NCBI GenBank assembly: GCA_903902075.1
Contig: CAIUTH010000255.1
Coordinates: forward strand, 1-32,236
Reading direction: 5' to 3'
Length of the DNA stretch: 32,236 nt
Source: an uncultured Alphaproteobacteria bacterium
Lineage (GTDB): Bacteria; Pseudomonadota; Alphaproteobacteria; Micropepsales; Micropepsaceae
The notes under the pieces are model-generated. The model was not told where the DNA came from. It saw nothing but the letters and a program-made list of their open reading frames with translations, and did no database searches. Each line of letters starts with the position of its first letter. Within the stretch, counting starts at the first letter, position 1. The position numbers were made by a program, and so were the translations under genes. Shown here piece by piece: positions 21,657 through 32,236 of this stretch.

Positions 21657-22409
21657 ATGTCTTTTAGCGTCAACACCAACACCGGCGCGCAAGTTGCGCT
21701 GCAGTACCTGAATGCCACCCAGGGTCAGCTTGATCAGACCCAGGCTCGCATCAATAGCGGTCTCAAGGTCGCAACGGCGAAGGATGATGGCGCGATTTAC
21801 GCTATTGCCCAAAACCAGCGCGGCTCTGTGGCCGGCTATTCCTCGGTGATCAACAGCCTCAATAACGGTTCGTCCGCCATCGACGTCGCCCTTTCGGCCG
21901 GCCAGTCGATTTCGGACTTGTTGATCCAGTTGAAGCAGAAGGCGCTGTCCGCTGCTGACCCCTCGCTGGATACCGCGAGCCGTCAGGCGCTGAACGCGAA
22001 CTTCACGGCCCTGCGCGATCAGATTTCCACGATCGTCAAGAACGCCGTCTTCAACAATTTCAACCTGGTCGACGGTTCGACGAATCAGGTTCAGGCCCTG
22101 GCGTCCTCGGACGGCACCCGCCGTATCACGGCCCAGGCCCAGAACCTGAAGCTGTCGGGCTCGATCGTGACGATCAAGACCACGTCCACGATCTCCACCC
22201 AGGCCAAGGCCTCTGCCCTGATCTCCGTGATCCAGACCTCGCTCACCAACGTCAACTCGGCCCTGGCCAAGCTGTCGTCGGGCGCCGCGAAGTTCTCGAT
22301 CCAGGCGACCTTCACGCAGAAGCTGTCCGATATCCGGCTTCTGCCTTTGTGGTACGCGCATGTCTTTGCCAGTTTCGTGCCGGACGGGTCGCGAAAATAT
22401 TCCATTTAA
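21657..22409 (+). CDS. Flagellin, C-terminally truncated with foreign tail
   Basis: A short alphaproteobacterial flagellin resembling Caulobacter FljK. Residues 1-140 match the N-terminal D0/D1 helices (SVNTNTGAQVALQYLNATQ, RINSGLKVATAKDDGAIYAIAQNQ, SSAIDVALSAGQSISDLL). The variable middle and the start of the C-terminal domain continue to about residue 225 (FTQKLSD). Family members then have about 50 more residues ending in the D0 helix (for example NLVDADLAKESA, KQQLGVQALSIANQ). Here they are replaced by 25 unrelated residues ending in GSRKYSI. Without the C-terminal D0 helix the protein should not polymerise normally. GCAGAAGC/GCTTCTGC inverted repeats (22316-22323, 22337-22344) flank the junction. 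The promoter and leader are intact. Confidence 0.85.
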   Translation: MSFSVNTNTGAQVALQYLNATQGQLDQTQARINSGLKVATAKDDGAIYAIAQNQRGSVAGYSSVINSLNNGSSAIDVALSAGQSISDLLIQLKQKALSAADPSLDTASRQALNANFTALRDQISTIVKNAVFNNFNLVDGSTNQVQALASSDGTRRITAQAQNLKLSGSIVTIKTTSTISTQAKASALISVIQTSLTNVNSALAKLSSGAAKFSIQATFTQKLSDIRLLPLWYAHVFASFVPDGSRKYSI

Positions 22410-23863: not shown

Positions 23864-24445
23864 ATGTCCGATCTCTTGCTTCCCCCCATCCCCACCTTTG
23901 TCGTCTGGGATGACGCCTTCACGCCGGCCGAACTCGCCAGTCTCACCGCCTTTGGCGATGGGCTGACAGCGGAGACCGCGACATTGAAAACCGGCAGTCC
24001 TGATGACGCCATCCGCAAGGACATCCGCATCACCCAGACCGCCTGGATTGCGCCTTCGCCGCAAAGCCAGTGGATCTATGACCGCGTCCAGCGCGTTGCC
24101 CGTGCGCTGAATGACCGGTCCTATCAGTTCGACCTGCGCGGCTTTTCCGAAAATCTGCAATACACGATCTATAACGGCACCGAAGGCGGCCATTATGACT
24201 GGCATGTCGATCACGGCCCGCTGAAGGTGCAGCGCAAGCTCTCCATTTCGGTGCAGCTCAGCGACCCATCCGATTACGACGGCTGCAACCTGGAGTTCCA
24301 GGCCGGCAACAAGATCGAAACCGCGCCGCGGACCCTTGGCGCGGTCGTCGCCTTTCCCTCCTATGTCCTGCACCGCGTCACGCCCTGCACCTGGGGCACG
24401 CGCAAGGCGCTGGTGGCCTGGACAACCGGGCCCAAGCTGCGATGA
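23864..24445 (+). CDS. 2-oxoglutarate/Fe(II) oxygenase, first of a tandem pair
   Basis: A 193-residue non-heme iron hydroxylase of the prolyl-4-hydroxylase/PKHD-like type, with a double-stranded beta-helix. The iron triad is H114-x-D116 (HYDWHVDHG) and H170 (FPSYVLHRV); Arg180 (GTRKALVAW) should bind 2-oxoglutarate. FTPAELASLTAFGDGL is the usual N-terminal helix. The substrate is unknown. It is divergent from the MFS gene across 128 bases. Its stop overlaps the start of a paralogue (ATGA at 24442-24445), so both are made together. Confidence 0.9.
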   Translation: MSDLLLPPIPTFVVWDDAFTPAELASLTAFGDGLTAETATLKTGSPDDAIRKDIRITQTAWIAPSPQSQWIYDRVQRVARALNDRSYQFDLRGFSENLQYTIYNGTEGGHYDWHVDHGPLKVQRKLSISVQLSDPSDYDGCNLEFQAGNKIETAPRTLGAVVAFPSYVLHRVTPCTWGTRKALVAWTTGPKLR

Positions 24446-25029
24446 GCGAACTCAAGACGGCGCCTGTCGTAATCGGCGAACATAAAGTGGCAGTGTGGAA
24501 GGATGTTTTCACGCCGGCTGAGCTGGACAGGATCATTGCCATCGGCGACGGCCTGTCGCCGATGCGCGCCCAGCTGGATTATGGCAAGGACGCCGCCGAA
24601 CATCACCGCATCACCCGTGTCGCCTGGATCAATCGTGATGCCGACAGCGATTGGCTTTTCGCCAGGCTGGAGGAGGTGGCGCTTCGCCTGAACAACGAAG
24701 TGTTCCACTACGAGCTTTATGGGCTGGAGAAAGGCCTGCAATACACCATCTATGAAGGCGCCGAAGGCGGCCATTACAACTGGCATGTGGACATGGGCGT
24801 CCACAATCCGGAACCGCGCAAGATTTCGCTCAGCCTGCAGCTGTCCGATCCGGCCGATTATGAAGGCGGCCGCCTGGTGATCGAGGCCGGCGACGGCGCC
24901 TATCCGGCGGAAACCGCCCGGGGAACTGTCATAGCCTTCCCCTCCTATGTCCTGCACCGGGTGTCGCCCACCGAATCGGGCGTGCGCAAGTCGCTGGTGA
25001 CCTGGGTGGCAGGCCCGGAATTCCGCTAA
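24442..25029 (+). CDS. 2-oxoglutarate/Fe(II) oxygenase, second of a tandem pair
   Basis: A 195-residue paralogue of the preceding oxygenase. It shares its architecture and many blocks: VFTPAELDRIIAIGDGL, LQYTIYEGAEGGHYNWHVD, ISLSLQLSDPADYEGG, and VIAFPSYVLHRVSP. Iron ligands H115, D117 and H172 and the 2-oxoglutarate Arg182 are all present. The two proteins differ throughout and not only at the ends, so the duplication is old and both active sites have been kept. This suggests two substrates or a heterodimer (inference). It is 63 bases upstream of gpmI. Confidence 0.9.
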   Translation: MSELKTAPVVIGEHKVAVWKDVFTPAELDRIIAIGDGLSPMRAQLDYGKDAAEHHRITRVAWINRDADSDWLFARLEEVALRLNNEVFHYELYGLEKGLQYTIYEGAEGGHYNWHVDMGVHNPEPRKISLSLQLSDPADYEGGRLVIEAGDGAYPAETARGTVIAFPSYVLHRVSPTESGVRKSLVTWVAGPEFR

Positions 25030-29349: not shown

Positions 29350-30411
29350 ATGGCTGCTGCTGCCGATTTCGCAGAAGGCTTGCTCGCGTCCAAAGCCGGG
29401 CGCGCGCTGGCCTTTGCCGCGTCCTTCACGATCTGCCTGCTGGCGGCGGGCATGCTGGCCATCACCCTTTTGGGTCATGCCCATGGTCCCACCATCGTGC
29501 TGGATCTGCCGGAAACTGCCGAGAACACACCCAAGCCGCCCACCAGCACCGCCTATTCCATCTCCGATGACGGCGCCGTGGTCGGCCCGGTGACCAAGCC
29601 GATCTATGCGGGCAAGGCGCTGCTGGCCGATCCCGCCCTGGTGGAAAACACACCGCAAGGCCCGTTGCCGCGCATTGCCGATGATGGCCGAAAACCCATG
29701 ACGGCCTATGCCGCTCCCGCCGCCGCCGGCACCAAGTTCAAGATCGCGATTGTGGTCAGCGGGCTGGGACTGTCCTCGACCGCCAGCAAGGCCGCGTTGG
29801 ACAGCCTGCCCGCGGCAGTGACCCTGGCCTTTGCGCCCTATGCCGGCGATGTCGGCCAGTGGGCAGCCGAAGCGCGCCAGCATGGCCATGAGATCCTGCT
29901 GGAAATTCCGATGGAGCCGTTCGATTTCCCCGACAGCGATCCGGGCCCGCACACTCTGCGCGCCGGACAGGACGAAGATGCCAACATCCAGCGCCTGACC
30001 TGGGCGCTGACCCGCTTCACCGGTTATGCCGGCGTGACCAATCTTCTGGGCCAGCGCTTCTTGTCTGACAGCGCGGCATTGTCGCCGACCCTGACCTATC
30101 TCAATCGCCGCGGACTGTATTTCTTCGACAATGGCGCGGCCAGCCAGTCGGTGGTTCCCACCGTGGCCGGCCAGGTCGGTATCCCCGCCGTGCAGAGCGG
30201 GGCGGCGCTGGACAGCATACAGACGGCGCTGGAAATCGACCGCCGCCTGTCGGAACTGGAAACCCAGGCCCGCGCCAATGGCAGCGCAGTGGGTTCGGCC
30301 TTCCTGTATCCCGTCAGCCTGGCGCGCATCGCCGCCTGGGCGAAGGGTTTGGAATCGCGCGGCTTTGTTCTGGTGCCGGTTTCCGCCATAGTGAACACGC
30401 CAAAACAATAA
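29350..30411 (+). CDS. Divergent polysaccharide deacetylase family protein
   Basis: A 353-residue protein with one N-terminal membrane helix (about 18-42), a Pro-rich periplasmic linker, and a C-terminal NodB-like barrel of the divergent polysaccharide deacetylase family (YibQ type). Visible blocks are KFKIAIVVSGLGLS at 130-142, LPAAVTLAFAPYAG, HGHEILLEIPMEPF, GVTNLLGQRF, LYFFDNGAA and GFVLVPVSAI. At the position where active deacetylases have an Asp-Asp pair, this protein has Ser137-Gly138 (SGLG), so catalysis is doubtful. It sits after envC-ctpA in the order common to Alphaproteobacteria, hinting at a cell-envelope role. rppH follows after 11 bases. Confidence 0.82.
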   Translation: MAAAADFAEGLLASKAGRALAFAASFTICLLAAGMLAITLLGHAHGPTIVLDLPETAENTPKPPTSTAYSISDDGAVVGPVTKPIYAGKALLADPALVENTPQGPLPRIADDGRKPMTAYAAPAAAGTKFKIAIVVSGLGLSSTASKAALDSLPAAVTLAFAPYAGDVGQWAAEARQHGHEILLEIPMEPFDFPDSDPGPHTLRAGQDEDANIQRLTWALTRFTGYAGVTNLLGQRFLSDSAALSPTLTYLNRRGLYFFDNGAASQSVVPTVAGQVGIPAVQSGAALDSIQTALEIDRRLSELETQARANGSAVGSAFLYPVSLARIAAWAKGLESRGFVLVPVSAIVNTPKQ

Positions 30412-30422
30412 AAAGCGCGTGT

Positions 30423-30893
30423 ATGTCTTCCTCCTCCGATCTGCCCTACCGGCCCTGTGTCGGCATCATGCTGTTCAACGCGGACGGCAAGGTGTTTGTC
30501 GGCAAGCGCATCGACCAGAGCGTGGAAGGCTGGCAGATGCCGCAGGGCGGCATCGACAAGGGCGAGACGCCCAAGCAGGCAGCCATGCGCGAATTGCAGG
30601 AAGAGGTCGGTACCGACAAGGCCGAGATCATGGCCGAGATGGAAGATTGGGTGACGTATGATTTGCCCGAGCACCTGATCGGCGTGGCGTTTCACGGCAA
30701 GTACAAGGGTCAGCGCCAGAAATGGTTCGCCATGCGCTTCACCGGCAAGGATGCCGATATCGACCTGACCGCCCATGAACCAGAATTCTCGGACTTCCAG
30801 TGGGTCAGTCTTGCGGAATTGCCGGGCCTTATCGTGCCCTTCAAGCGGCAAACCTATAAGGCGGTGATTGCCGCGTTCCAAAACCTGGCATGA
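30423..30893 (+). CDS. rppH: RNA pyrophosphohydrolase
   Basis: A 156-residue Nudix enzyme that removes pyrophosphate from 5'-triphosphate ends of RNA and so starts mRNA decay. The Nudix box occupies residues 42-64 and fits GX5EX7REUXEEXGU exactly (GGIDKGE to REL-EEVG). RppH-type features are YRPCVGIMLFNADGKVFVGKRID at the start, WQMPQGGID, KGQRQKWFAMRF and FSDFQWVSL near the end. ATG at 30423 is chosen; little leader exists, so it is probably cotranscribed with the deacetylase-like gene. The stop overlaps the next gene as ATGA. Confidence 0.94.
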   Translation: MSSSSDLPYRPCVGIMLFNADGKVFVGKRIDQSVEGWQMPQGGIDKGETPKQAAMRELQEEVGTDKAEIMAEMEDWVTYDLPEHLIGVAFHGKYKGQRQKWFAMRFTGKDADIDLTAHEPEFSDFQWVSLAELPGLIVPFKRQTYKAVIAAFQNLA

Positions 30894-31654
30894 GCAAATC
30901 TCCTGTTGTGATGATCCACGGGGCCTTCTGCGGACCCTGGTCATTGGATGGGCTGAAGGAAAGATTCGAGGCCGCCGGTTATGCCGTCACCGCGCCGCCC
31001 CTGCGCTTTCATGACGAAAAGCGATCGTCTCCCGCATTGGCCACCACCGGCCTGGCCGATTATGCCGCCGACCTGGAAGACGAAATCCGGGCGCTGAAAG
31101 CCCCGCCCATATTGGTGGGACATTCCATGGGCGGGCTGCTGGCGCAGATGCTGGCGGCGCGCGTCAAGGTTGCTGCCCTGATATTGCTGGCGCCGTCACC
31201 ACCCTGGGGCGTGGCACCCACCACCCTGTTTGAAATTGGCGCCGCCCACGCGATGCATCTGCAGCCCGGTCACTGGAACCAGGTGCTGGAGCCCAATCGC
31301 GACGTGGCGCTGGCTCATTCCCTGGACCGGCTGCCGCGCGACAAGCGCGATGAAGTCTATGGCCGCTTCGTGGCCGAATCGGGCCGCGCCATGTTCGAAG
31401 TGATGAACTGGGCTCTGGATTTCAACCAGTCCAGCGCGGTGGATGCCAAATCCGTGACCGCGCCGATGCTGTTTCTCACCGGCAGCGAGGACAAGATCAA
31501 TCCGCCTTCGACTGTGGAAAACATCGCCAAGTTATACGGTGACCGCGCCACCGCCGAAGTGCTAGACGGCATGGGCCATTGGCTGATCGGTGAACCAGGC
31601 TGGGAAAAGCTGGCGCAACGTGCGCTGGATTGGCTGAAGGCCCAGAGGCTTTAG
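30890..31654 (+). CDS. Alpha/beta hydrolase
   Basis: A 254-residue cytosolic alpha/beta hydrolase with a complete triad: Ser79 in VGHSMGG, Asp201 in GSEDKINPP and His230 in GMGHWL. HGAFCGPWSLDGL at residues 10-22 forms the oxyanion region. The cap sequence (WGVAPTTLFEIGAAHAMHLQPGHWNQVL) does not identify a substrate. It is translationally coupled to rppH by ATGA. It converges on the repeat-protein fragment and overlaps its stop by four bases. Confidence 0.9.
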   Translation: MSKSPVVMIHGAFCGPWSLDGLKERFEAAGYAVTAPPLRFHDEKRSSPALATTGLADYAADLEDEIRALKAPPILVGHSMGGLLAQMLAARVKVAALILLAPSPPWGVAPTTLFEIGAAHAMHLQPGHWNQVLEPNRDVALAHSLDRLPRDKRDEVYGRFVAESGRAMFEVMNWALDFNQSSAVDAKSVTAPMLFLTGSEDKINPPSTVENIAKLYGDRATAEVLDGMGHWLIGEPGWEKLAQRALDWLKAQRL

Positions 31655-32121
31655 CTCTTGGCGTCGGACTTGCGCTTGGCGAAATCCTTCATGAAAGACT
31701 GCAAGGTATCGATGGACGCGATCTTGGCCGCGGCCTCGCGGAAGGCCAGGCCATGCTGGTCGATATCGGACGACAGCACTGCGAACAGATTGGCGTCGGG
31801 CGTGCCTTTCATCTTGGGCGCGAAATGTGCGCGCACCCGCGCCAGGCTCGCTTCGTCATTGGCCAGGCTATAGGCCACGGCCGTCCGCATCACCTGGGCG
31901 CGGTCACTATCGCTCAACGGCACCGTGTCGCTCCAGCGCGCATCCAGCATCTCCTCGGCCTTCTGGCCGGCAATGGCCCAGTTGCCGCTTTCCCAATAAA
32001 TGTCGGCACGCAGGTGCTTGGTGTCCTCGGCCTGGTCCACCGCGATCAGGTCCAAGGCATTGTCCCATTGCTTGAGGGCGGCAAAGGCGCGCGCTTCCAG
32101 CAGCATGCGCTGATGCATTTC
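31651..32121 (-). pseudogene. C-terminal part of a TPR-like helical repeat protein, 5' end missing
   Basis: About 155 residues from MHQRMLLEARAFAALKQWDNALDLI to KDFAKRKSDAKS, helical and repeat-like, with TPR-style pairs such as HLRADIYWESGNWAIAGQKAEEML and RTAVAYSLANDEASLARVRAHF. It looks like the end of a longer protein. The frame stays open to 32232, but the codons right of about 32121 are antisense to an flgH-like fragment and read as non-native (Cys, Arg and Ser-rich). The gene is therefore cut by a junction rather than starting there. An ATG near 32117 could start a shortened product. The family is unidentified. Confidence 0.6.
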
Positions 32122-32126
32122 CTCAG

Positions 32127-32195
32127 GGCACGGTGAGCGACGTGCAGCAGCCGCGCTATGGCAGCCAGCTGCTCGACATCGTGATGCCCTGGTAA
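32127..32195 (+). pseudogene. flgH: 3' fragment of flgH (flagellar L-ring protein)
   Basis: The last 22 codons of a gene, reading GTVSDVQQPRYGSQLLDIVMPW then TAA. This closely resembles the C-terminus of alphaproteobacterial FlgH as I remember it (a GxxTDVQQPRYGxQxLDxxLPF ending); FlgH forms the outer-membrane L-ring bushing. Upstream of 32127 the frame runs into the antisense of the repeat protein, so the rest of flgH is missing here. The fragment is followed by a hairpin that runs off the window. Recognition rests on one short motif, without a search. Confidence 0.6.
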
Positions 32196-32215: not shown

Positions 32216-32236
32216 AAAAAGCCCGGTCGCAAGACC
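32216..32236 (+). terminator. Half of an intrinsic terminator at the window edge
   Basis: AAAAAGCCC-GGTC-GCAA-GACC: the GGTC/GACC stem closes on a GCAA tetraloop like that of the flaF terminator. The outer arm would continue beyond the window as GGGC and T residues. It lies 20 bases after the flgH fragment, where a terminator is expected. Confidence 0.6.

Follow-up and report, generated by a model that had tools for sequence, protein, structure and literature searches.

The window analysed here is the whole of contig C255, 32,236 nucleotides long, from a MAG of the Micropepsaceae (386 contigs, 2.68 Mb, 93.8% complete). At base 32124, 112 nt before the contig ends, two gene ends meet directly: on the minus strand the 3' part of a large gene that belongs to a flagellar cluster in relatives and, on the plus strand, the last codons of flgH. 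The features of this locus, together with a second break in flagellar sequence further to the left, are listed below, where L numbers denote loci or stretches and G numbers denote genomes.

21657-22332, plus strand: truncated flagellin gene, with a frame that runs to 22409 (Flagellin_N, E 3.4e-23); the last 50 residues are missing
29350-30411, plus strand: divergent polysaccharide deacetylase, conserved left flank (PF04748, E 9.5e-62; synteny)
30423-30893, plus strand: conserved left-flank gene (synteny), which we take to be RppH-like, here and in the relatives' loci
30890-31654, plus strand: alpha/beta hydrolase, directly left of the remnant, the two genes being convergent (Abhydrolase_6, E 1.1e-20; synteny as in L089, L090 and L092)
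31654-32124, minus strand: 3' remnant (last ~156 codons) of a flagellar-cluster protein of ~1180 aa in relatives (tblastn and nucleotide identity)
32124, no strand: joint with a 1-nt overlap, probably left by deletion; 8862 bp are absent when projected on the intact relative L090
32124-32195, plus strand: 3' end of flgH (final 23 codons plus stop), in native orientation (NCBIfam profile, alignments to G011 and L090)
32216-32236, plus strand: first arm, loop and start of the second arm of a hairpin, seen in the sequence; the contig ends inside it

Read on the minus strand, window 31654-32124 corresponds to the C-terminus, residues 1026-1181, of a protein that is 1181 residues long in G011 (81% identity, E 3.3e-72 by tblastn), and the remnant is 96.8% identical to L089 at the nucleotide level over 473 nt. 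The N-terminus is missing, as the original prediction held, for the gene in relatives starts ~1,000 residues further upstream rather than near 32,117. The product had been described as a helical repeat protein, a label left without confirmation by its full-length relatives, which have no Pfam, NCBIfam or PDB sequence match. Its gene neighbourhood suggests that this repeat protein may be a MotK-like periplasmic motor protein; an AMIN domain with a repeat region would mark such a protein, and Pfam gave no match for it.

On the right, the plus strand from 32124 to 32192, with the stop that follows, encodes QGTVSDVQQPRYGSQLLDIVMPW. This tail matches positions 217-239 of the 239 in the NCBIfam FlgH profile NF001305 (E 2.4e-5, far under the cut-off that the family sets for whole proteins, as a fragment of 23 residues would be) and residues 218-241, stop included, of the FlgH of G011 (87.5%, E 4e-9), and the right side is 84.5% identical to L090 over 116 nt. 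Pfam alone gave no match for the 26 tail residues tried. The tail is therefore the C-terminus of FlgH on the plus strand, as had been claimed, with 23 residues in place of the 22 first counted; a functional FlgH would need an open frame of ~240 codons, of which these 23 remain. The incomplete hairpin has a matching terminator-like counterpart in L030, at 2911-2942 between flgH and dksA, and the L030 alignment extends to window 32232.

The alignments of the two sides to their nearest relatives, L089 on the left and L090 on the right, overlap in the single base 32124. Both genes are thus cut at the same point and the layout is abnormal, a junction of two cut genes, as had been proposed; the breakpoint formerly put at about 32,121 and 32,127 is real, and its exact base lies 3 nt from each figure. 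A 194-codon open frame crosses the joint on the minus strand and was considered as a new gene created there; this seems doubtful, its upstream part being antisense flgH and terminator sequence.

The second break lies ~9.8 kb from the first, in agreement with the claim of two junctions in flagellar sequence within 10 kb. Compared with three flagellins of G011 and G008, each 275 residues long, the truncated gene covers residues 1-225 (81-89%), its DNA homology to four relatives ends at 22313-22332, and an MFS transporter gene then follows on the other strand. It is the sole flagellin gene found in its own genome; among nine congeners searched, seven have one to three flagellin matches and two, G002 and G005, have none. 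Elsewhere in the window, at 23864-25029 on the plus strand, two adjoining genes of 193 and 195 codons each carry a 2OG-Fe(II) oxygenase domain and are perhaps tandem copies.

The uncut cluster of relatives and the other contigs of the genome

Read in the window's orientation, the left part of the locus in relatives consists of the deacetylase, RppH and hydrolase genes on the plus strand, followed on the minus strand by those for the repeat protein, a MotE-like protein, a DUF6468 protein, FliM and FliL; the right part comprises FlgF, FlgG, FlgA and FlgH on the plus strand and then, on the minus strand, a gene that we take to be dksA. The repeat protein gene and flgH stand ~8.9 kb apart, with fliL, fliM, flgF, flgG and flgA between them, and the hydrolase adjoins the repeat protein in some intact loci, not all. 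Pfam supports FliL, FliM, DUF6468, FlgA and FlgH in these loci; the MotE-like label is tentative, with MgtE_N and FlbB matches below cut-off only. Both flanks of the joint keep this ancestral order and orientation and the middle is gone, which points to deletion rather than inversion. The flgH tail had been called inverted, a claim that does not hold, its orientation relative to the repeat protein being native, as in relatives. The junction that the original prediction observed is confirmed, and its interpretation as a whole is partly supported.

It had also been suggested that a full flgH and a full repeat protein gene be located in the same assembly, and neither was found. FlgH has no Pfam match in the 386 contigs, no part of the repeat protein was found other than that at the window end, and FlhA was not found. 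The rod-domain proteins of the genome are FlgB and FlgC only, and of the proteins with the Flg_bbr_C domain, of FlgE/F/G type, the single one found is FlgC by length and place. Within the missing segment this search covered FlgH, the Flg_bbr_C proteins and the repeat protein, and the missing copies of these three were found nowhere else in the genome (93.8% complete). DksA, expected to the right of the joint, was not found in the genome either, which suggests that the assembly lacks the adjoining segment on that side; the absence of genes may be partly due to the incompleteness of a fragmented MAG. On contig C163 of the same genome (G000), flgB, flgC, fliE, fliQ, fliR, flhB and fliP are still open (stretch L064, 3968-8520) and colinear with G011. 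With seven flagellar genes still open, the loss of flagellum genes is partial and probably young.

Cut clusters in other MAGs

When the remnant's family was run against 84,980 species genomes, 73 loci emerged. Of these, L089-L134 (46 loci) were studied, as were the window and 15 stretches taken from relatives; L135-L161, 27 weaker ones, were set aside. The bait was the C-terminal part of the repeat protein, so scars that had lost that part could not appear. The repeat protein is cut in five of the 46 loci, and in four of the five it is joined to FlgH, at breakpoints other than that of the window:

L120 (same contig as G005): repeat protein cut at 829 or somewhat before, joined to FlgH 103; DksA follows
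L094: repeat protein cut at 949, joined to FlgH 148; the contig ends inside FlgH
L116: repeat protein cut at 959, joined to FlgH 160; a shortened DksA follows
L098: repeat protein cut at 984, joined to FlgH 178; DksA follows
L091: repeat protein cut at ~810, preceded by 147 nt of other sequence, not FlgH

In L091 the sequence at 1-147, which has no Pfam match, is presumably the start of an IS3-type transposase, and the locus suggests insertion as one route of loss. At 1441-1986 of L116, DksA is shortened to its first 95 residues and stands directly beside the flgH remnant, as if a further deletion had taken the terminator and the end of dksA. Ranked by how much of the repeat protein remains, the window, L098, L116, L094 and L120 fall into the same order as when ranked by what is left of FlgH, an agreement with a chance of 1 in 120 that was noticed afterwards.

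The cut genomes also lack other flagellar genes. FlhA is present in 15 of 20 locus genomes, those without it being the genomes of L098, L116, L094, L091 and the uncut L095; among four further genomes, G011 and G008 have it and G000 and G005 do not. By the state of the cluster, FlhA occurs in 0 of 6 cut against 16 of 17 uncut genomes (Fisher 7e-5, which ignores kinship, completeness and project), where 'uncut' means a cluster uncut as far as seen, L089, L103 and L104 showing only part of it. L106, in which the contig ends inside the gene and whose genome has FlhA in two pieces, was left unscored. Flg_bbr_C matches number 0 or 1 in the six cut genomes, compared with five in G011, G007, G008 and the genome of L090 and four in those of L089 and L095. 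The seventh comparison genome, that of the congener G002, has none, and no cluster was found in it; searches there for FlgH, the repeat protein, FlhA, rod proteins and flagellin gave no match, nor did its DksA stretch match the window at the DNA level. G002, which was not counted among the cut genomes, is a possible case of complete flagellum loss. Cut genomes measure 2.2-2.7 Mb and uncut ones 1.8-4.2 Mb (Mann-Whitney p 0.007, again ignoring kinship, completeness and project); genomes reached through loci carry no completeness value. The names of L091, L094, L098 and L120 suggest a common project, which makes them weaker as independent assemblies, and that of L116 suggests another; the uncut L089 and L095 bear names in the same style as those four.

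Whether the cuts go back to one event was judged from trees of neighbour genes, in which each row needed at least two of the genes. One tree held 40 of 49 loci and included the remnant's own columns; the other, of 37 rows, was built without those columns, without L089 and without two identical copies. Both need five changes, all five forced by supported branches, so that the cut genomes are not one clade, at least five changes are required, and a single ancestral deletion for all six is ruled out. L120, L094 and L098 each have an uncut sister, and L091 branches next to a group made up of the window, L116, L089 and L090. L116 stands as sister to the window (99/88 and 100/100), and one event may account for both, the smaller deletion of L116 falling inside that of the window.

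The remnant in the window shows no decay, with 12 synonymous and 3 non-synonymous differences from L089. Amino-acid change, calculated as pairwise branch estimates in a three-way comparison of each remnant with an intact sister, was as follows (remnant/intact sister):

Window: 0.000/0.009
L091: 0.031/0.035
L094: 0.031/0.052
L098: 0.062/0.061
L120: 0.114/0.108
L116: 0.039/0.021

Three of the six remnants have thus changed less than the sister, two (L098, L120) slightly more and L116 clearly more, the last compared on 106 codons only, with a 1-nt gap and an internal loss. The L120 value is high against its own synonymous estimate (0.114/0.165), as under relaxed constraint, and the estimate is noisy. 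The estimates establish neither neutral decay of the remnants, which was rejected, nor selection after the cut. Either the cuts are young or the C-terminal part is still in use. In L089, 98% identical in the remnant, the gene is uncut back to residue 96, and its genome has FlhA (positions 1-227, at a contig edge); a relative so close and yet uncut implies that the deletion in the window is very recent or restricted to some strains.

Origin of the joint and comparison with known systems

We consider that the joint is a recent, genuine chromosomal deletion scar from flagellum loss, with a probability of roughly 0.83. An ancestor would have carried the full cluster, from the deacetylase, RppH and hydrolase genes through the opposed repeat protein gene to flgH and the convergent dksA; one or more deletions would have removed ~8.9 kb, starting within the repeat protein gene and ending within flgH, and the two outer 3' ends, with 1 nt of common sequence, would have been united by illegitimate end joining. 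Within 60 nt of the two breakpoints in L090, the sides have no word in common that reaches 8 nt, whether direct or inverted, which leaves both a repeat-mediated deletion and a k-mer misjoin without footing there; the 1-nt overlap without a repeat suggests illegitimate end joining rather than recombination between repeats. We infer that the DNA molecule itself has the joint and that end joining made it. A real deletion is favoured by the colinearity, the lack of a shared word in a relative, the searched missing genes found nowhere else and the similar junctions in other MAGs. With flagellin cut and other flagellar genes not found, the cell is probably non-flagellated and non-motile, a phenotype predicted from sequence.

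An assembly chimera, in which two true but separate pieces were joined near the contig end while the population retains the full cluster, would suit a fragmented MAG with its joint 112 nt from a contig end, the uncut gene of L089 (98% identical, open back to residue 96), the failure to find DksA and the prospect that most of the parallel cases come from one pipeline. Yet a random misjoin would hardly bring together both extremes of a single 9-kb cluster with their order and orientation preserved, and at the joint, judged on the relative L090, a k-mer assembler would have had no shared word to misuse. No other contig was found to carry FlgH, FlgF/FlgG-type proteins or the remainder of the repeat protein. 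Junctions of the same type also occur in L116 and in three MAGs apparently from a different, common project, and all four lack FlhA; we regard the chimera as quite unlikely.

A mixture of strains, some cells with the deletion and others with the cluster intact and the contig representing one form, overlaps with the preferred reading of a recent deletion scar. The undecayed remnant and the close, uncut L089 fit a young deletion that is perhaps still segregating, but no intact copy was found in the binned genome, and we hold such a mixture to be possible, if rather unlikely. A true inversion that placed the flgH tail beside the repeat protein gene has in its favour the oddity of a head-to-head pair of cut genes when seen without relatives; the identical relative orientation in the relatives' intact loci rules it out by synteny and leaves it scarcely conceivable. 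It is very doubtful, too, that the locus is a recurrent deletion site for shedding the flagellum in large steps while the repeat protein's C-terminal part is retained for a separate function; the matching ranks of the five double breakpoints and the remnants that changed less than their sisters would fit, but the bait of the scan was that very part.

Under the deletion reading, a suspected misassembly becomes a readable step in flagellum loss, and two cut genes meeting at the end of a contig can be biological in origin. The joint, the layout of the uncut cluster and no fewer than four further events within a single clade are now available, and from them the order and speed of flagellar gene erosion become measurable.

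Such losses have parallels beyond this clade. The Methylophilaceae are not Alphaproteobacteria. The likeness lies in their planktonic strains, which, in the part of the report available, lost motility with genome streamlining, during genome reduction, single joints being no subject there (PMC6794327); in cultured freshwater bacteria motility genes are linked with larger genomes, according to the accessible part of that study (PMC12381374). A further likeness concerns the MotE/MotK region of Cereibacter sphaeroides and Caulobacter CC_2058, where a gene for a large periplasmic protein stands beside fliL/motE-type genes and MotK is predicted, in the sections consulted, to resemble tetratricopeptide-repeat proteins; the repeat protein here differs in being likened to MotK by neighbourhood only, with no Pfam, NCBIfam or PDB sequence match (PMC10954123). 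Among the literature matches listed, which covered few subscription papers, none dealt with flagellum loss in the Micropepsaceae/Rhizomicrobium neighbourhood. In the Rhodobacterales, the available portion of one paper, which is silent on deletion joints, describes how the fla1 flagellar gene cluster was lost sporadically and independently, a likeness in being repeated within flagellated clades and a difference in taxonomic order (PMC12363192). Convergent loss of flagellar genes is described, in the portion at hand, for the Caulobacteraceae (Acaudatibacter, Phenylobacterium immobile), likewise as separate alphaproteobacterial lineages nested among flagellated ones and including some freshwater MAGs; those genomes lack such genes completely, whereas here cut ends mark the site of the cluster and seven flagellar genes are kept (PMC12700997). 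Convergent and repeated flagellum loss having already been described, the present event is a further example of a known process.
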